Shown here piece by piece: positions 7,684 through 38,082 of a stretch of DNA of 64,000 nt. Source of the stretch: Atopsyche davidsoni. Its lineage: Eukaryota; Arthropoda; Insecta; Trichoptera; Hydrobiosidae. Location of the stretch: assembly GCA_022113835.1 (NCBI GenBank), contig JAILWY010000003.1:12237501-12301500 (forward strand), given 5' to 3'. The notes under the pieces were generated by a model. That model was given only the letters and a program-made list of their open reading frames with translations. It ran no database searches and was not told the DNA's origin. Position 1 is the first letter of the stretch. Every line of letters starts with the position of its first letter. Made by a program: the position numbers and the translations under genes.

Positions 7684-8748
7684 AGTGAGCGGCGCCATCC
7701 TCGTGCGTGGGCGGTCAGCTGGAAACGATAATAAATATTCTACGATCAGTCGCAGCTAAGGCGCTCTCGAGTCGTATTACTCACTAATTGGACACGCGCT
7801 GATTTCATCTACGATACATTTAACACTGATTATGCTCTCTTAATGATAGAATTTTAACCGCTTCATGGCCCAGTGGCAGGCACGCTCGCTTGCCCAATCA
7901 TAAATTGTCTCCAAGTCGTCATCAAATATCCTGCATGAAAAAAAACCTTTCTAATTATAGTTTTCTGTGATTTTCCTGTATACAAAAAATGTCGCAGAGT
8001 ATCAAGCAGGATACTATCTTTGAATGCTTCTCTTACGCGAAGCAATTTTTTTCGCGTTAGTTAAAATTTTTTCATTAAACAAAAGTTACTAGGTCTAGTG
8101 AAATTATATGTTTCTGTTATACTTGTATGTATTTAAAAGCTTGAAGACGGTTAGAGGTTTTTTTAGTAAGAAGTTTCAGGTCATACGATTTAAGTAGATA
8201 TAATACACGAATGAGTAAAGTATAAATTTGCAGTAAACGCAACAAGAGGCAGTTGAAAAGCACATTTCTTGGCGGAGTAGGCTGAGACGACCATAATTCA
8301 GCATGCATGTCTGTAGCAGCGGAATTCCAAGCAACTCTATAAAAGTACATCCAAGGAATCGAACGGGCAACGTTTCTCACCGAGACTTGCATTCAAATCA
8401 AACGTATAATATCGGCTGATTTTATCGCTAAGTTACGTACGCCGGCTATTATTGCTCAGCCACGCACGCCACGCTGGCTACGATTTACGGCTGCTTTGTG
8501 TCATAGAGCTTTGCTGATTTCGTAACAAAACATCAGCAGCGAAATCAAACCAAGCACCCTAAAAAATATTATTATTATTACAGAACTGAGGTTTCAGAGC
8601 TTTTTTTGCTTGCTGAAGATGAACTACCAGCGAATTGCATTAAACAAAAAATTGCTCAAAAGTCGACGATAATTGGTATTTACACAATGGCCGATAGCAC
8701 GCTACACACAATGCAATTTGTCGGTTTTTTTGTAAGTGCATAGCGTGT

Positions 8749-19698: not shown

Positions 19699-21669
19699 TC
19701 ACTCATCATTAAAGAACTTCAACTTGTTTTCGTCGATCCACTTGGCGTAGGTGCTAACCCGGACAAAGACGTCCGGCATGTATGTTTTGCGGCTGTCAGG
19801 GCCCACTCCGGAGGCGATGCCGACCTGCAGGCCGGTGTGGAGGTCCACCAGGGGGCTGCCGGAGTCACCCTGGAAAATACAAGACCCAGAGCGAATTTTT
19901 CAACCAATGCAAGCAACGTACCAATATAACTGTAGCAATTTCGTCGTTTTCAGATGTGTGGTCGTTTTTCGTTCGTAAAAAATATTTTTATAATTATTTA
20001 TTGTATATAATAGTAAAATAGTAAATTGTACTTCTGATATACGTAATATACATATTTTTTATTTAGAAATTATTTGTGCTGAAATAATTATACACCCCTG
20101 CATGCTATGCTGAAAATAAGTATATAAGAGAAATGAACCGATGAAAGGGAAACTCTCGGGCTATGTAACATCCGGCAGACTTATGTTGGATGTTTAAGGG
20201 CATTTTATAATGAATAAGGGCTGGGTAGTGGACTCTTACTACAGATAACTGCCGTTACTTGACTACAGGCAAAGTCGCAGTTACAACACAACTGAAAACC
20301 AACCAATAAATTTTAACGACCGACAAAACACTTCACAAACAGTTTGTAAACAAGTGTATAACCCACAGGTAGTTTCCACTTACAAAGGAAGAGCCATTTT
20401 CGATGCTGTTGAAGGTGCAGATCTCGTCAGTGATGCGGATGTAGTGCTTGCACACGTCTGTGCTCATGGTCCAGAGGTGCAGGTGCTGGAGGTGGTCGGG
20501 TCTTTCGCCTTGAATCTAAATTGAAAAGAGCTCACTGAAGAAGGCACTACGGTCACAATTGAAATTAACTACAAAAAATATATTTATAAATTAACTACAT
20601 GTAAAACAATGAATATCCAAGTAGCTATGAGAAAAGTATATTTTTAAAAGTAAATATTTTTAGAAGGTCAGATTTCAGTTCAATTTTGAAGCTCTTGGTA
20701 GGAGAAAGCATTTCCAATAAAAATGACGTAGTCTTATAGCCTTTTCAATTTGCATATTTAGTGTTTTGATTTTAAATAATATAAACTACATTAAATTCTG
20801 TACCTTGAAAATGTAAGTTGGCCTGGTCATGTTTATATGTATAAAGCCATCTACAAACGCGACAACGAATAGCAACAAAAATGCCATTTTTTGGCTAAAT
20901 AACATACAAATCATGTGTTTTGTTTAAAAGTTGCCAGGGGCGATTTACTGTTGCAATTTGTTGGTCGATTGTCAGTTGTATTACTAGGTAAAGTAGCCGA
21001 ACTGCATACAGCATTTAAAAGACATATCATACTCACGGAGGTTAAACCCCATCCAGTCAAGGTTAGTCTTTGGTTTTCTTCAATATAAGGGTCTTCCGCA
21101 TACTTGATGGGCTGCACGGAATCACCAAATTTGATCGAGGTCCACAGAATAATTAGACCAATGTCGTGCAAATGACGGACAGGTTTATATTCGGGATGGA
21201 TTATAAATTTGTAAGAGTTGAATGTTTGTCCTCCTTTATTCAGATCGTTGCTGCCGACAGTAACATCGAAGTCCCACGGATTCTCGTTGCTGAAATGAAA
21301 AGTTTTGAGAGGCCTACACACGTTGAGAGGCCTACTCATTTCAGCAAGGTGACAAGTCGATTAGATTAAAACGTGTGTAAGCAGTTTTATCGGTCGGTGT
21401 ATTGTCTCGTGTGTTACTGTAGAAGCACCGAATATACCAGTAAATATACTGTAACAAGACTAAAAATATTGACAATTCAATAACAGTGTATACTGACTAC
21501 AGGCAGTGGGCCGCTGTGAGGATGGTTCTCTGGGAGATGATGGACCCCCCGCACACGTGCTCGGATCCTTCCACCAGCTTGATGGACGCCATGTAAAGCG
21601 CAGCCCCAGGAGCAGCATCCTCGCCACCGATGATGCGCGAGTCAATGTCGAGCCCCCCCACCTGAGCAC
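19699..21669 (-). CDS. Protease A: chymotrypsin-fold serine protease, first exon not found
   Basis: Secreted S1A endopeptidase by family. Exons on the minus strand: 21669-21498, 21289-21037, 20515-20384, 19869-19699 (TGA), about 242 residues without a signal exon. Seen: activation site DIDSR^IIGG, CGGSII, TAAHC (His57), HLHDIGLIIL (Asp102), GWG, Cys168 and Cys182, GDSGSPL (Ser195), with Asp226 in MPDVF. Position 189 is Gly. Odd: exon 4 ends ENGSSF where paralogues have a Cys, and exon 5 reads GPDSRKTYM without Cys220, so the pocket disulfide is gone on both sides. No phase-1 signal exon or shared upstream motif lies between exon 2 and gene B. An AATAAA on the coding strand sits at about 19,489-19,494. 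The 3' flank is nearly identical to that of gene C. It may borrow the first exon of B, or be decaying. Confidence 0.8.
20804..20887 (-). CDS. Candidate alternative secretory first exon inside gene A
   Basis: In the intron before the Cys168 exon of gene A, an ATG opens 28 codons beginning MAFLLLFVVAFVDGF, a good signal-peptide pattern, ending at AAG|GTACAG, a donor-like site in phase 0. The next acceptor is that of the Cys168 exon, also phase 0. If used, the product would be secreted and lack catalytic His and Asp. It could equally be a chance hydrophobic frame in AT-rich DNA. Confidence 0.2.
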
Positions 21670-22369: not shown

Positions 22370-24194
22370 TCATTCCATCTTGTGATAGTCGATCCATCTG
22401 TAATAGCTGCTGACTCGGGTGAAGATATCCGCCATGACTATTCCGCAACTCTTGGGGGGTCCCCTGGAGACGATGCCTACTTGCAAGCCCGTGTAAAGGT
22501 CCACCAAGGGGCTGCCGGAGTCCGCCTGGAAACCACAGGATACTGATAAAATATATTGACTGATGAAAATTGTCACGTCGTGATACACCTGGCCAACAAA
22601 TCATTTTTTCGATAAAATAATCATTGACGTAGCAATAACCTCATATGGTTGTTTTATCGAGAAAAATGGCAAAAAATGTCTAGTAGATTTTTTATTGCGA
22701 TCAGTTGATGGTCGGTTGTCAGTTGTGTTACTGGTTGTGTAATGGAATTAAGAGGTTTCCACTTACGTAGCAAGTTCCTCGTTTCCTTCCCATGAAGGTG
22801 CAGATCTCGTCAGTAATGTGATCGTAATGCTTGCAAACATCCGTGCTTATTGTCCACAGGTGTATGATTTGAAGTTTTTTGGCTTGAGGACCTATGTACT
22901 AAAAATGGAAATGACACCATTGGACTAACAAAGCCGCCAACCAGCTGACAAAGTGCACCACACTGTCGTCCGTTGGCGGTTATGTTGAGATGCCCATAAG
23001 GGCTTTAAGGATTCAATAAGAAAATGTATTGGCAGATAAACTATCATATCATCTGATAGCGGTTGAAAATATTATACGGAATTCTTTTAATTATATTCGG
23101 AAATAAAGCACACTGTACACGTAGCAATACAATTGTATTGGCTACGTGTGTAGTATTCAACTTACACGGGTTCTTCCCCAACCTGTCAGGGTGAGTCTTT
23201 GGTCTGCTTCAATGTAACGGTTTTTCGCGTACTTAATCGGCTGTATTAAATCAGTAAAGTTAATTGTAGTCCTCAAAATGATCATTGCAATGTCGTGCAA
23301 ATTATCGACAGGGTCATATTTTGGAAAGATGGTAAAGTTGTGAGGGATGTGAGTCTCTCCTCCGTGGTCCAGGTCGTTGGTACCGACGGTGATTATCAAA
23401 TCCCAAGGGTTCTCATCGCTGAAACATGTTAACTTGGTTAGAGAATTTTAATTCGAGTAATTAGTTGAGCGTACAAAACACGTAGCGACACAACTGACAA
23501 GCAATAAATTGATACTTGTAATATTTTGCAGTCAAGGTCGATAGTAATTTGTTGTTGCAATATGTATGTCGGTTGTCAGTTGTATCACTACGTGTGTAGT
23601 TTACTAGTAATGAGCTGTTTCTTTGTATTTTTACAAACTAGTTTTATACTGACTGTAGACAGTGGCCTGCCGTCAGGATGGTCTTCTTGGAGATGATGGA
23701 GCCTCCGCAGATGTGGGTGCGACTCTTCTTCCGCCTGATGGACACGGCGTATGGGGCGACTCCGGGGTCGGCTTCATCTCCACCAATGATGCGAGAGTCC
23801 ACGTCAAATTTTTCAGCCCTTGTACCTGTAAAATAAAGCCTTGAGGCTCAGTAGCCAGCGCTTGCTTACCGACCGATAAAAGTAAATATTTTTTTTCAGA
23901 TTTATTTAATTTTACAAAAAATATAAATTATCTACATATTCAAAAGGAAAGCTTTGAGAAAAAACGCTATCAAGTGTAAATTTTCTGTGATCTCCCTATA
24001 ACCAAAAAGCCAATATTATACGATCAGTATTTTTACAGCTCCGTGGCTCAGTGACAGACTTATTTACCTGTCATAATTACCTGAAAGGAAGCGATTTCGA
24101 GAAAAAGCAAATTCCGGATACGTATCAAGCCTAAGTGCTGCTTACCGAGAAACAGCGCCGAGACACCGACCAGGAGTAGTGCGAGCGCGTGCAT
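22370..24194 (-). CDS. Protease B: chymotrypsin-fold serine protease with Ala193
   Basis: Five exons on the minus strand: 24194-24146, 23825-23654, 23418-23166, 22898-22767, 22525-22370 (TGA); 253 residues. The signal peptide is [17 protein letters not shown]. Activation at DVDSR^IIGG; TAGHC (His57), LHDIAMIIL (Asp102), GWG, Cys168, Cys182, Cys191 and Cys220 present. Position 189 is Gly and 226 is Asp, a brachyurin-type pocket. Odd: the last exon starts GCG GAC TCC, so the motif is ADSGSPL rather than GDSGSPL, replacing oxyanion-hole Gly193. All other residues expected for activity are intact, so this may be a protease with altered rate or specificity rather than a pseudogene. The ATG is chosen because it starts a good signal peptide and the exon has a GTAAGC donor. 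Introns carry MITE arms. Confidence 0.88.
23107..23155. mobile_element. Foldback MITE reduced to its ends
   Basis: CACACTGTACACGTAGCAAT followed almost at once by ATTGGCTACGTGTGTAGTAT: a 49-base miniature in intron 3 of protease B with virtually no centre. Confidence 0.55.
23465..23609. mobile_element. Foldback MITE copy
   Basis: In intron 2 of protease B. Left arm CACGTAGCGACACAACTGAC, right arm GGTTGTCAGTTGTATCACTA then CGTGTGTAG, with a complementary ACTTGT/ATAGTAATTTG centre. Confidence 0.65.
24042..24110 (+). repeat. tRNA-like SINE fragment
   Basis: GCTCCGTGGCTCAGTGACAG is A-box-like; a weak B-box candidate (GCGATTTCGAG) follows. It lies in intron 1 of protease B. Confidence 0.3.
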
Positions 24195-27474: not shown

Positions 27475-27646
27475 TCAGCTTTTTTTAATGTACTTTGACT
27501 TGTTTTCATCGATCCACCTGGCGTAGTTGCTCACTCGGATGAAAACGTCTGGCAGTCCCTACAGCGCAGTGTTTTGATGCTATCCTGGAGGCGATGCCGA
27601 CTTGCAAGCCATTCTCAGGATACACCAGGGGGAAGCCGGAGTCTCC
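27475..27646 (-). pseudogene. Pseudo-D: orphan last exon of a serine protease
   Basis: After an intact acceptor (TTCCAG), the minus strand reads GDSGFPLVYPENG and then LQVGIASRIASKHCAV in one frame. A one-base excess near 27,560 then shifts the frame; the neighbouring frame continues LPDVFIRVSNYARWIDENK to a TGA. The length is 172 bases, one more than the exons of A and C. Exons for His57, Asp102 and Cys168 were not found upstream, yet the shared upstream motif persists at 28,024. This is the remains of a deleted tandem copy. Confidence 0.8.
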
Positions 27647-28616: not shown

Positions 28617-31600
28617 ATGTACAAGATCTTTGTTTTATTTTTGATTGGCGTCCAAGCTGTTTGTAGCAGTGAGTATGATTGTACAATTTTAACTCCTGGT
28701 GGTGTAAGAGATAGAACACTCGCTTGCCGACTATAAGGTTGCGGTTTCGGTCCTGTTAAATTTGTAAATTGGGTGCAAACCGATCGTGATTTATCTTAAA
28801 TAAACAAATGCCGGAGATGCAACAAACCTTTTCATATCAGATTCTAGTGCTCGCTTACATGTCAGTTCTTGACACATCTGCATTGTTTTATGAAATTGTG
28901 TCTTCTGCCAAACCTGCTGCTAACCTTCTGAATAGCTGATTATCGAAAATAATAGTTAACTCTTAAGAGCCGTTTTTTACTACACACGGGTAGTATAAGG
29001 ATTAGTTTACATGCGCTTTATTTTCAATTATTGATTCATTATTTTAAAAAAAATTCGGATTTCGTGTTTTCTTTCTAAAACCGGAAATTGTAATGTATCT
29101 GATATTAAATGTCGTAAAACAAATAATGTTTTGAAACGCTAAGTGTGTGAATATTTTTTTAGTGGCTTACAGTTGTTTAAAATCTTATCACGCAACTATT
29201 GGAAAAAATACAGTCATACAAAGAAAAATATTACAACATATAAAATTCCCATAAAAACTAGTCTGAAGCAAAAGTATGTAGTTTTTATGTGATTTCATAA
29301 CATTTTTATAGCGCGTCGAAAAATATTTTATTATTAATATATATATATGGAAATTTGTTGGTCGGTTGTCAGTTGTGGCGCGATGTGCGTCGGTGGCCTT
29401 GGGTGGGTAATTTTTGGGTATTGTCGCAGGTCCTGTGGTCGGTGGCAGGATAGTGCCTGCACGAGCTGTGCCTTACCAGGTGGCCGTGTACGGGTTACGG
29501 GCCTTGTGCGGAGGCTCCATCATCTCTTCTAGAACCGTCTTGACAGCTGCGCACTGTTTATTTGACAAAAACAAGTAAGATATCTATAAATTATTGTTTC
29601 AAAAACTTTTTCATAAATTAAATGCTTTTAGATTTGTTTTTCACACTCAGTGAAACAAACCCTTCAACACATACTGCGACAATACTAATGAACAAATTGC
29701 TCGCAACTATTTTGTCTATAAAATGGCGAAAATATTATTTATAGCAATTTTCTTGTTGCTCAGTTGTGTTGCTACGTGTGTAGTGCGCTTAAATATGCAC
29801 GCACAAGTATGCGTGTTAATAGTTGCGTATGTTTTAAAAATATTCAATTTTATGTTATTCATGACGGTAATGATCCGCAATTGTTTTATCTTGATACTAA
29901 AAATTACAATTTAATAAAAATCTAAGCTCTCTCTAAAGTAGAGTATATATGATCTATGGCATGGCAACTAAATAGTGGGGCTTTAGCGTTTTAGATCCCA
30001 GTGTGTGAGCATGGATGTGATTGTGAAACGCTGTTGTTTCGGTCGGTAATATTCTTGAATTGTTGACAGGTTGCAGCCTTCTGATAATTTTGTCATCTTG
30101 GCTGGTACCAATGACATGTCCAGTCTTCTAAAGCTCTCTCTTGGAAAAACCCCTCCCTCAAGGCTCTTTCACAGAAACATTCACCTACCTCGTCAAATCA
30201 TCATTCACCCAGAGTATAATGATACAGGCTATGATGGTGACATAGCCTTGGTAATCCTATCGCAGCCGATCATATTCTCTAGCGTGAAGCAGCCGGTTAG
30301 AATCGCAGGAGGTGACTACCACATGGACGACAACAAGATGCTCACAGCGACCGGGTGGGGGTATATCGATGTAAGTAGAGTGTCAGTGGGCGGAAGTCGA
30401 GTACTTAGTGGAGGAGAGTGCCTCTCTCACGCTGACCGGGTGGGGCTGCTCAGTGTGGAGATCTGTGATGATTGCACTTGAGCGGTTTACACACGATACA
30501 AAAAGGGTGACCACTGACAAAAAAAATTTGGTCAGTTCGATATATATATTGTCTTTTTAAAAATTCAATGTCTTGGTGTCTTTTAGGCTAACAGAAATGT
30601 TCGTAACAATTATCTTCGCACAGTTAATTTAAATTATGTCAACAATTACGAATGCTGGAAGACATTTCTAAACGTCAAACTCGTACGTATAATATTTTTA
30701 TTTACATTTTGGACTAAAAATCGCGGTTTTCTGACCATTGATCCAATCATTTGATACGATCAAAAACGAGCTACTCAAAAAACTCGCATTTTTTCCCTTT
30801 TACTATTAGCCATTTAATCACACAGCAATACAACTGACAACCGACTAATAAATTGCCATCGACTTGTTAATATATAATGACCATTGGCATAATTTTTTGG
30901 CGAAGCCAGTGAATGGGCGAAAATATTTAAAACATGGTTAATTGAGTTACATTCGATGTAATTTGTTGGACGGTTGTCAGGTGGAACGATGTGTATTTAT
31001 TGTTTTTTTTTTATTGAAGATGAATTTTACCGAAAACCGTCTAGAAAGCAAATTGGAATTAATTATTGACAGTTTTGAGGACATCGATTCAACGGGCGTG
31101 GTTCGCATGATCTGCGCTTTCTTTGACCTCGAAGAAGAGGAGTGCATTGTACGTACCCTTATTGCTAATTTTTATAATTTTGTACAACATTTAAAAAAAA
31201 AATCTTTAAATAAATATTATAGAATTAAAGATTTTTTTAGGATTTGATTATGATTTGAATAATATAAGTAAAAGAATAACTATTTTTTTTACCATTTTAT
31301 TTAATTCTCTCTACAACCGGATAGTACTTTTTGAAATGCAGAAACGATGATTGGACTTCCTCATTTGACTACGGTTGTTGCAGACCACACATTCAGATTG
31401 AATCTACTATAATAATAGCCATTGTGTGTGTGTGTATGTTTCATTTTTTGCTTCTCTATAGAATATCTTAAAAGATACAACGCTGATTTTTTGCACGTAA
31501 GTTAAGTAAATTTTTCCACAGCTATGTGCCGAATTTCAAGACGATAGGATAATATTTTTATTCATAAACTAATTTAATTAAACTATAAAATATGCTCTAG

Positions 31601-33466
31601 CGAGTTTCAATATGTACGAATTATAAGATTTTATTGTTCAACACGAGAATTTCAAATTTAGAACTTAGAAATTTAGAAATTTTCAGTTTATGTCAGCTTG
31701 ACACAAGTACCAATTTTATTTTTTTGATTCATTGTTTGTGACACGAAATGTGATATTTCCTAGAATGGCTTTGCTTTCGAAATTAATATCCGGATATTCA
31801 AAATATATGTGTACAAAATGAAATCAAATATTCATCTAATTGTCAGCCAAACATATGTTCAAACACTATTGCATCGTTCATCGAATACGTCATTTTATGA
31901 CGGGCTACATTTCTAGTACTAAAATATTTTCTGAAATATGTTACTCGTGTGCATTACATGGAAACATTTTAAATTGACATATTTTATATAATTAGTGGGA
32001 CTGAAAAAATCACTCACATATCATAAGTTATCAATAATCATTACCATCCAAATTTAGTTATAAAATTGTAAAAACACACCATATAAGCAGCTAAACACCT
32101 ATAACCATCGCCCAATTGCCATTGACAAATTTTTTCGATAAATTAAGAATTAGCTTTTTTTTTTTACTGTTACATTTTTCGACAAAGCTGTACAGTTTGA
32201 TCATAAAAATTGGACGGTAATTTGTAGGGTAGTTTGTTAAAATTAATGGCTAAAAAATAGTAATTTGTTGGTCGCTTGACTTCCCCGCTTGAATTTCATG
32301 CTGCCAGTCGTTGTAACTTTTAATTCTTAACTACTTAATATTTATATTTAAAATAGAATTTCATGTTTTAGAGAAACAGTACGTGGAAACCTCTTATTCT
32401 CAATTTTATTAAAACTATAATTAACGGAAGCCAGGAGGAAAAGCTCTGCTCAAACACCAACTCGGCTGATAGCGCATGCACGGTAAGTTGCACGGCATTG
32501 AGAATAATATATTTTAATTCTTTGATTTGTAAACGTATTATATTCACATAATGAAGATAAATGCGATAGCAACTCTGGTCAATTTTCTTGTGTTATTAGG
32601 AGAGTTCATGGGGGTCCAGCATAGACGAAAACCCTAAACGAGTCTTCGCTGTAATTTTAGAACATGAATTACGAGATATAGTAGGAAAAGATAAAGAGGC
32701 AAGCAACCTCTGTACAGTCAGCAACCCAGGAAGTGGCATTTGTTCAGTAAGTGATTTTCAATTTTCTTTGCTTCTTTCCAAATCCACAGTTTTCTGATAA
32801 TCTAAGAATAAGTCAACAAACTACACTAATCAGTTGGCGTTCACAAAGAAAGAAGCAAAAATAGGCAATTATAGCTCTCTTTGGCATGATATGCCTCCAG
32901 CATATGTCGTCTATAAGCCTGTATGATAGATACAAATATTCTATAAGACTGCTGCTGCACAGTTCAATTTCAGTTTTAAAAAACAGTTTATACTTTTAAA
33001 ATCTGGAAATGTTTTATGCTTCACCCGGATTCGAATTCCGCCCCGACCAGAACCTTGGCTCGGTGCTTCCTACCCTTGATGGTGTCCACTGGTGGAATAA
33101 ACACGAAAATATAATCGCTGTATACTCAGCAACAAATCGCAACAATTTTTAATATGTAATTTTTGATAGGTCAAATACCGAATGGCATTTTTAGTTGTTT
33201 AGATTTGTGCCATCTTTTATGCGATTTTGCTTAAAATCTTTGCTGAGTCGAATCGTTGTTGCGATCTGTTTCTACGTGTGTAAGGAGCTTAAAAATGAAC
33301 ACGCTATTTCCAGGGAGACTCCGGCGGACCCTTAGTGGACCTTAGAACCAATACCCAGGTCGGGATTTCTTCCTTTTTATTGAGTTCTTGTGCAGATGGA
33401 TTACCCAACTTCTTCACCAGGGTCAGTTTTTACGCCGACTGGATAAAGGAAAACATCGTCCAGTAA
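28617..33466 (+). CDS. Protease E: serine protease with tandem cassette exons
   Basis: Plus strand, exons 28617-28668, 29430-29574, 30070-30370, 30587-30682, 31020-31148, 32372-32482, 32600-32746, 33314-33466 (TAA). Using all gives 377 residues; family members have about 250. Signal peptide MYKIFVLFLIGVQAVCS is followed directly by SPVVGG, so no Arg/Lys activation site is seen. CGGSII, TAAHC (His57), GDIALVIL (Asp102), GWG, Cys168 in YECWKTF and GDSGGPL (Ser195) are intact. Position 226 is Asn (LPNFF), unlike the Asp of its neighbours. The Cys168 exon is split after FLNVKL, and the three following phase-0 exons each end in a Cys-x(7-9)-Cys module matching Cys182-Cys191. The shared upstream motif is absent. 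Splice sites are good throughout, so it appears functional; how the three exons are used is unknown. Confidence 0.82.
28695..28758 (+). repeat. tRNA-like SINE fragment
   Basis: GGTGGTGTAAGAGATAGAAC then GGTTGCGGTTTCGGTCC resemble degraded A and B boxes. It sits in intron 1 of protease E. Confidence 0.3.
31020..31148 (+). other. Gene E cassette exon 1 (Cys182-Cys191 module)
   Basis: Acceptor after a long T run (ATTGAAG), donor ATT|GTACGT, 129 bases, phase 0 at both ends. Encodes 43 residues: MNFTENRLESKLELIIDSF, an acidic spacer, then RMICAFFDLEEEECI. If joined directly to the GDSGGP exon, residues 189-192 would be Glu, Glu, Cys, Ile. Confidence 0.7.
32372..32482 (+). other. Gene E cassette exon 2 (Cys182-Cys191 module)
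   Basis: Acceptor CATGTTTTAG, donor ACG|GTAAGT, 111 bases, phase 0 at both ends. Encodes 37 residues: STWKPLILNFIKTIINGS, then EEKLCSNTNSADSACT. Joined to the GDSGGP exon it would place Ser, Ala, Cys, Thr at 189-192. Confidence 0.75.
32600..32746 (+). other. Gene E cassette exon 3 (Cys182-Cys191 module)
   Basis: Acceptor TTGTGTTATTAG, donor TCA|GTAAGT, 147 bases, phase 0 at both ends. Encodes 49 residues: ESSWGSSIDENPKRVFAVIL, a charged spacer, then NLCTVSNPGSGICS. It is the cassette next to the GDSGGP exon and places Gly, Ile, Cys, Ser at 189-192, the Gly189 of the neighbouring proteases. Confidence 0.78.

Positions 33467-35745: not shown

Positions 35746-38082
<2,337 letters not shown>

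Follow-up and report, generated by a model that had tools for sequence, protein, structure and literature searches.

Introduction

In insect serpins, the specificity loop is exchanged through alternative exons joined at a fixed splice position in the hinge (PMC10513286), and in the case of MASP-1 and MASP-3 one gene yields products with different serine protease domains (PMC3701661). Here we describe gene E, a predicted chymotrypsin-like protease gene in a 64,000-nucleotide stretch of the genome of the trichopteran Atopsyche davidsoni (GCA_022113835.1, contig JAILWY010000003.1, positions 12,237,501 to 12,301,500; hereafter the window), in which three consecutive exons each encode a Cys182-Cys191 segment of the S1 pocket in front of a single catalytic exon. 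Its anatomy resembles that of the serpins in that a specificity segment lies beside a conserved core at a fixed splice position; the serpins differ, however, in being inhibitors and in having C-terminal alternative exons that are known from transcripts, whereas gene E is known from sequence (PMC10513286). MASP-1 and MASP-3 differ from gene E in that the whole protease domain changes and not a pocket segment within it (PMC3701661). Work on lacewing venom covers S1 proteases and alternative splicing, with the isoform switching lying in a serpin (PMC12758981), and Drosophila SP212 is a new protease gene, unlike the case of gene E (PMC1949825). The passages considered from these serpin, MASP, lacewing and SP212 sources do not describe an exon array for a pocket segment, and among the matches listed from the openly licensed literature we found no case of alternative Cys182-Cys191 exons in an S1A protease.

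The best-scoring solved sequence is PDB 1EQ9 (listed as chymotrypsin), which we take to be a fire ant protein. It shares with gene E a module in which nine residues separate Cys182 from Cys191 (C-x9-C) directly before GDSGGP, but unlike gene E it has one such module, 12 residues between Cys168 and Cys182, Gly216 and Asp226. Other C-x9-C genes of the same genome are like gene E in having an intron right before Gly193 and a phase-0 exon that ends in C-x9-C-x, and unlike it in keeping Cys168 and Cys182-Cys191 in one exon.

Results

Gene E has three C-x9-C exons in front of its catalytic exon

Coordinates are given as positions within the window, and genome searches covered 370.7 Mb in 80 contigs. 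Several protease genes and fragments lie at 19.7-40.5 kb of the window; among them gene E (28617-33466, plus strand) is modelled as an intact chymotrypsin-like protease gene of eight exons with open frames:

28617..28668, + strand: exon 1, with the start codon and a signal peptide MYKIFVLFLIGVQAVCS, ending in phase 1 with donor gtgagt; placed by eye on its open frame
29430..29574, + strand: exon 2, encoding the PVVGG N terminus and His57 (TAAHC); tblastn to five window paralogues, E 4e-9 to 6e-7
30070..30370, + strand: exon 3, Asp102 (GDIALVIL) and TGWG; tblastn to five paralogues
30587..30682, + strand: exon 4 ('0'), the Cys168 half of the ancestral exon, without Cys182-Cys191; phase 0/0, donor gtacgt
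31020..31148, + strand: cassette exon A, 129 nucleotides, 43 residues, ending C-x9-C-I; Glu/Glu at 189/190, donor gtacgt
32372..32482, + strand: cassette exon B, 111 nucleotides, 37 residues, ending C-x9-C-T; Ser/Ala at 189/190, donor gtaagt
32600..32746, + strand: cassette exon C, 147 nucleotides, 49 residues, ending C-x9-C-S; Gly/Ile at 189/190, donor gtaagt
33314..33466, + strand: last coding exon, Gly193-Asp194-Ser195, Cys220, Asn226 and stop; tblastn to six other Ser195 (S) exons or fragments of the window

Exons A, B and C all lie inside intron 30683-33313, between the Cys168 exon and the GDSGGP exon, and have AG acceptors, GT donors and phase 0 at both ends. A first-pass annotation had placed them at exactly these coordinates and in this phase, which the spliced models bear out. 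It had also described a C-x(7-9)-C module positioned as in the paralogues, and here the agreement is tighter than claimed, with exactly C-x9-C-x in A, B, C and four paralogues. The long loop that it reported between Cys168 and Cys182 was confirmed by hand count, at 40 (A), 34 (B) and 46 (C) residues vs 10-12 in the window paralogues; this spacing is 12-16 in the other x9 genes of the genome.

In the reading that we favour, the ancestral exon would stop after Cys168 in gene E and its second half would be present as three cassette exons. Each cassette would supply both an insert of 25-37 residues before Cys182 (31 in A, 25 in B and 37 in C) and a version of the S1 pocket wall at 182-192, and splicing would pick the cassette to be placed in front of the invariant catalytic exon. 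We give about an even chance to the proposition that the cassettes are used mostly one per messenger RNA (mRNA), which would give E189/E190, S189/A190 or G189/I190 pockets; the likelihoods that we attach to this and to three other readings below are judgements and not computed values. We infer here the translation of A and B, their single use per mRNA and the change in specificity. The Cys168 exon, exactly one cassette and the last exon provide one each of Cys168, 182, 191 and 220, and single use would combine this canonical cysteine set with different residues at 189, 190 and 192. All eight subsets of the cassettes splice open, giving 377 residues for ABC, 291 for A, 285 for B, 297 for C, 328 for AB, 340 for AC, 334 for BC and 248 for none.

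The three models scanned all scored far above the gathering score of Pfam PF00089 (Trypsin), with 132.2 (ABC), 129.8 (C) and 122.6 bits (none) vs 20.6, and the model without cassettes had an additional sub-threshold match to Trypsin_2. His57, Asp102, Ser195 and Gly193 are present in frame (TAAHC, GDIALV, GDSGGP), and the alignment places a loop insertion in exon 3 relative to the paralogues. We class the predicted product of gene E with the secreted S1A proteases of insect chymotrypsin-like (C-x9-C) type. Where the paralogues have Arg before the IVGG-like N terminus, the site at which Arg or Lys marks zymogen activation, gene E has Pro before VVGG. Such an activation site is usual in S1A proteases without being universal, and Pro counts against an ordinary zymogen and not against S1A membership; because of this Pro, and because the signal peptide lies a few residues upstream, it may be that gene E does not encode an ordinary zymogen.

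These oddities could also mean that the entire gene is in decay or is not expressed, a reading that we consider very improbable. It would fit the Pro in place of the activation Arg, Leu216 and Asn226, the neighbouring copy that is a fragment (27646, minus strand) and the distance to known proteins: the best 120 of 3655 database matches are 26-35 percent identical to gene E, and no close orthologue was found among these or among the best 120 of 4941 from a search in which the scored candidates were capped at 7960. Against decay stand the eight open exons and the intact triad and oxyanion residues. Coding differences between gene E and its paralogues in the Asp102 and Ser195 exons also speak against it, at 178/146/265 for codon positions 1/2/3 (summed over eight rows that share sequences, with four misframed His57-exon rows left out), although the third-position excess reflects constraint in the protease family rather than in gene E alone.

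The triple module is more than chance

We scanned for an AG followed by a phase-0 open segment of 90-160 nucleotides that closes with C-x(7-9)-C-x immediately before a GT[AG]NGT donor. On both strands of the window this signature has seven matches, and in every one exactly nine residues separate the cysteines: A, B and C, and one in each of four paralogues, whose modules the scan places as follows.

37339-37470, + strand: paralogue module
39836-39705, - strand: paralogue module
26116-25979, - strand: paralogue module
22898-22767, - strand: paralogue module

Within intron 30683-33313, the three observed matches compare with none in 400 dinucleotide shuffles, and the antisense strand of the intron has none. 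When the signature was relaxed to any GT and x7-9, intron shuffles gave a mean of 0.03 matches and at most one, and ten shuffles of the whole window gave a mean of 0.6. The guanine-plus-cytosine content of A, B and C is 0.41-0.43 vs 0.29-0.34 in the 200 nucleotides upstream, a rise that the Cys168 exon does not have (0.32 vs 0.44 upstream).

At the protein level, phmmer aligns exon A to PDB 1EQ9 and exon C to its segment SHICTLTKRGEGACH. Own-genome searches, in which the first pass scored a single candidate, found no second copy of exons B and C. A plasmid search with one exon peptide returned two Streptomyces records and was uninformative.

Two further segments of the intron were considered as a fourth cassette and rejected: 31325-31429 (x15) and 33195-33275 (x12) have an AG and a GTGTGT donor, but neither has x9 spacing or a single residue after the second cysteine.

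Relatives carry one module per gene

In the x9 relatives, Cys168 through Cys191 lie in one phase-0 exon, which stops one residue past Cys191 and is followed by an intron before Gly193. Twenty regions were fetched around protease matches, as a chosen sample of the 165 matches in the genome. They yielded 15 further C-x9-C genes, on contig C3 near 3.35 Mb and contig C8 near 9.11-9.18 Mb, each with Cys168 and Cys182-Cys191 in one exon. In all 15 the Ser195 exon (or its replacement) comes next, with the Asp194 codon 83 to 919 nucleotides on and no second x9 module between; for one of them the last exon as printed is incomplete. Together with the four window paralogues, 19 relatives were traced, each with one module and none with an insert of gene E's size between Cys168 and Cys182. 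Because the signature occurs in none of the 400 shuffles and each relative has a single module, we conclude that the three-exon array is real at the sequence level, and unique among the 19 relatives traced.

Every module of gene E ends exactly one residue before its donor, as in the four window paralogues and the 15 genes elsewhere. These ends are fixed while the upstream parts differ in length and sequence, which suggests that only the part that must dock on Gly193 has been kept.

Ten more small regions hold genes of other spacing classes (x8, x10, x11) and one further x9 gene, L036, which has a single module and is left out of the 19, its last exon not showing in the fetched piece. Wherever both were visible in these regions, each Ser195 exon had a single credible module, L037 having an extra chance match and L039 and L040 no clear pairing of module and Ser195 exon. 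The x9 count also leaves out six antisense-repeat peptides in L011-L013 (donor gtatcg) and segments with no protease exon after them, and an additional x9 module within a long open frame of L005 was left out of the tracing. In the 10 kb flanking each end of the window, no further protease motif was seen.

Among the traced genes with a readable last exon, 7 of 14 have Ser195 replaced, and all seven have Phe at 216. These are tandem C-x9-C genes of L012-L014 (C8, about 9.12-9.15 Mb) that carry Gln or Glu in place of Ser195 (GDQGGP, GDEGGP, GDQGSP), an array of probably inactive protease homologues.

The cassettes would change the pocket wall

In chymotrypsin numbering anchored on alignments to PDB 1EQ9, residues 189, 190 and 192 are E, E and I in A, S, A and T in B, and G, I and S in C; the earlier reading of EECI, SACT and GICS at 189-192 is thereby reproduced. 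In the relatives, 189 is G, 190 is S, A, T or V, and 192 is F, Y, H, L, N or Q. In our numbering, gene E has Phe215, Leu216 and Asn226 in its last exon. Among the 12 of 22 last exons that could be scored, residue 226 is Asp in ten, Asn in one and Gly in one, and Asp226 was read by eye in the 14 readable rows of the traced x9 genes. Since gene E has Asn where its relatives have Asp226, the charge of the pocket would come from the cassette. Nevertheless, residues 189-192 alone do not fix the pocket, because the constitutive last exon has Leu216 and Asn226.

Gly189 with Asp226 is a mark of broad-specificity invertebrate enzymes, and in elastases the residues at 190 and 216 are bulky. On this basis cassette C would be elastase-like and cassette A might favour basic residues, both weak guesses because of Leu216.

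Evidence on how the cassettes are used

We count in favour of single use that each module is in exact register with Gly193, that a single cassette completes exactly the canonical disulphide set, that the constitutive part lacks the pocket acid, that the acceptors of A, B and C are weaker than that of the last exon, that no remnant of other protease exons was found in the intron, and that the serpins offer a precedent. Other observations weigh against it. The cassettes had been described as diverged duplicates, a claim that does not hold beyond their Cys-x9-Cys ends. Their parts before Cys182 are no more alike than shuffles (p 0.61 for A-B, 0.48 for A-C, 0.22 for B-C), and compared with the paralogue exons, which are clearly alike among themselves, they reach a lowest p of 0.09. 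Over the whole length, A-B (p 0.0035) and B-C (0.0025) do score above shuffles, whereas A-C (0.235) does not; when the N-terminal part only is shuffled no excess is left (0.11 for A-B, 0.08 for B-C and 0.73 for A-C), so the likeness lies in the cysteine register. The Cys168 exon, which corresponds to the first half only of the paralogue exons, resembles them weakly (p 0.012 to 0.22), and also resembles exon B (p 0.016, one of 28 comparisons).

WebScipio recognises mutually exclusive exons by similar length, same phase, tandem position, GT-AG splice sites and a relative alignment score of at least 15 percent (PMC3228551). Exons A, B and C, at 43, 37 and 49 residues, stay within its length difference of at most 20 residues and are GT-AG and phase 0/0 throughout, but their scores of 0.01 (A-B), 0.01-0.02 (B-C) and -0.10 to -0.08 (A-C) fall short of 0.15 (PMC3228551). 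The four window paralogue exons score 0.33-0.61 among themselves. Gene E fails the rule on similarity, yet it may work like a mutually exclusive cluster. Common descent of A, B and C is likely from their position, phase and C-x9-C end, the remainder of the exons giving no support. When 30683-33313 was searched by tblastn with the exons for His57, Asp102 and Ser195, there was no match at E up to 1; because no remnant of other protease exons was found there, we reject whole-gene duplication as the origin of the array.

Part of the splice-site evidence favours joint inclusion. Each cassette had been credited with a good donor and a good acceptor. The donors rank 8th (A), 2nd (B) and 1st (C) of 122 in the intron, those of B and C being at the top, in a tie with a decoy at 31496. 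For the acceptors the description holds in part: the AGs are present but their strength is unremarkable, at 20th (A), 30th (B) and 25th (C) of 116 intron AGs. The position weight matrices behind these ranks use intron bases only and were trained on small sets (17 donors and 37 acceptors). They give the acceptors of A, B and C scores of 4.1, 3.1 and 3.7, where the last exon has the best of the gene's seven (8.2); since exon 2 (4.3) and the Cys168 exon (4.8) score alike, the weak acceptors of the cassettes are no special argument for regulation. The intron between B and C, at 117 nucleotides, imposes no steric exclusion, and because all the exons are phase 0/0, joint inclusion of A, B and C would be equally in frame. 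No pairing like that of docking sites was seen in the intron, whose longest inverted repeat is a dispersed element. Finally, Leu216 in the constitutive exon may occlude the pocket whichever cassette is used.

The main rival reading is constitutive use of all three exons. The precursor would then have 377 residues, 129 of them contributed by A, B and C after the Cys168 exon and ahead of Gly193; in that case module C only would form the pocket and A and B would be an added lobe in the 170 loop. We consider this reading unlikely, though it has in its favour a full open frame, strong donors and ordinary intron sizes, an even number of cysteines (ten from VVGG on) and symmetric exons that need no regulation. 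It would also expect A and B to have drifted as parts that are no longer a pocket, and over the ten non-cysteine module positions their identity to the family is 0.11 and 0.14, vs 0.28 for C, the closest of the three, and 0.49 among 18 distinct family modules. However, it offers no reason for A and B to have kept the exact x9 spacing and the single residue before the donor while the rest varied, a modest argument, as chance alone can spare a stretch of 12 residues from indels. Moreover, no database protein shares the A-B-C insert, since of 59 candidates none reached an E of 1 or below, and none of the 19 relatives traced has an insertion of this size.

Alternatively, exon C alone might be used, A and B being relics of an earlier duplication that are skipped or included as noise. 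Exon C is nearest to the last exon and most like the family and 1EQ9, and the unremarkable acceptors of A and B would suit relics. Yet relics without any similarity would not be expected to keep frame, x9 cysteines, phase and GT[AG]NGT donors, and we judge this explanation improbable because that signature arose in none of the intron shuffles.

Other features of the locus

A repeat at 29352, 30960 and 32262 was considered as a splicing element and rejected, as it is the end of a dispersed element. An inverted-repeat element lies before exon A (30815-30999), its end TTGGTCGGTTGTCAG having 21 window matches at up to 2 mismatches. Right after exon 3, a second TGWG-like stretch (30399-30446; tblastn E 0.32) includes a 20-nucleotide repeat of 30341-30360 at 85 percent and is perhaps a partial copy of that exon's end.

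Neighbouring protease sequences in the window include:

19717-21634, - strand: protease gene with His57, TGWG and GDSGSP exons, its Cys168-Cys191 exon not recognised in the scan
22373-22525, - strand: neighbouring protease with ADSGSP, that is, Ala at 193, the oxyanion position
27502-27646, - strand: isolated GDSGFP exon-like fragment with matches in two frames

Discussion

The proposal that gene E encodes alternative pockets stands in part: the exons are intact and non-random, the module lies before Gly193 and 19 relatives have a single module each, while a recognisable duplication of whole exons is not supported. Beyond single use of the cassettes, we tentatively suggest, with somewhat less confidence than in that use itself, that one gene could provide a set of S1A proteases in which the 182-192 pocket and the 170 loop would be chosen by splicing. 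In this set the acid at 226 would have been given up and the cassette would set the charge, making gene E a protease counterpart of the spliced serpins.

Protease arrays such as those of this genome suggest that insects widen specificity through gene duplication. If the cassettes of gene E are indeed used one at a time, splicing that swaps the pocket wall would add a second route to wider specificity, and the intron before Gly193 would be shown to be able to act as a module boundary. Such a route might also have a bearing on how plant-feeders answer protease inhibitors.

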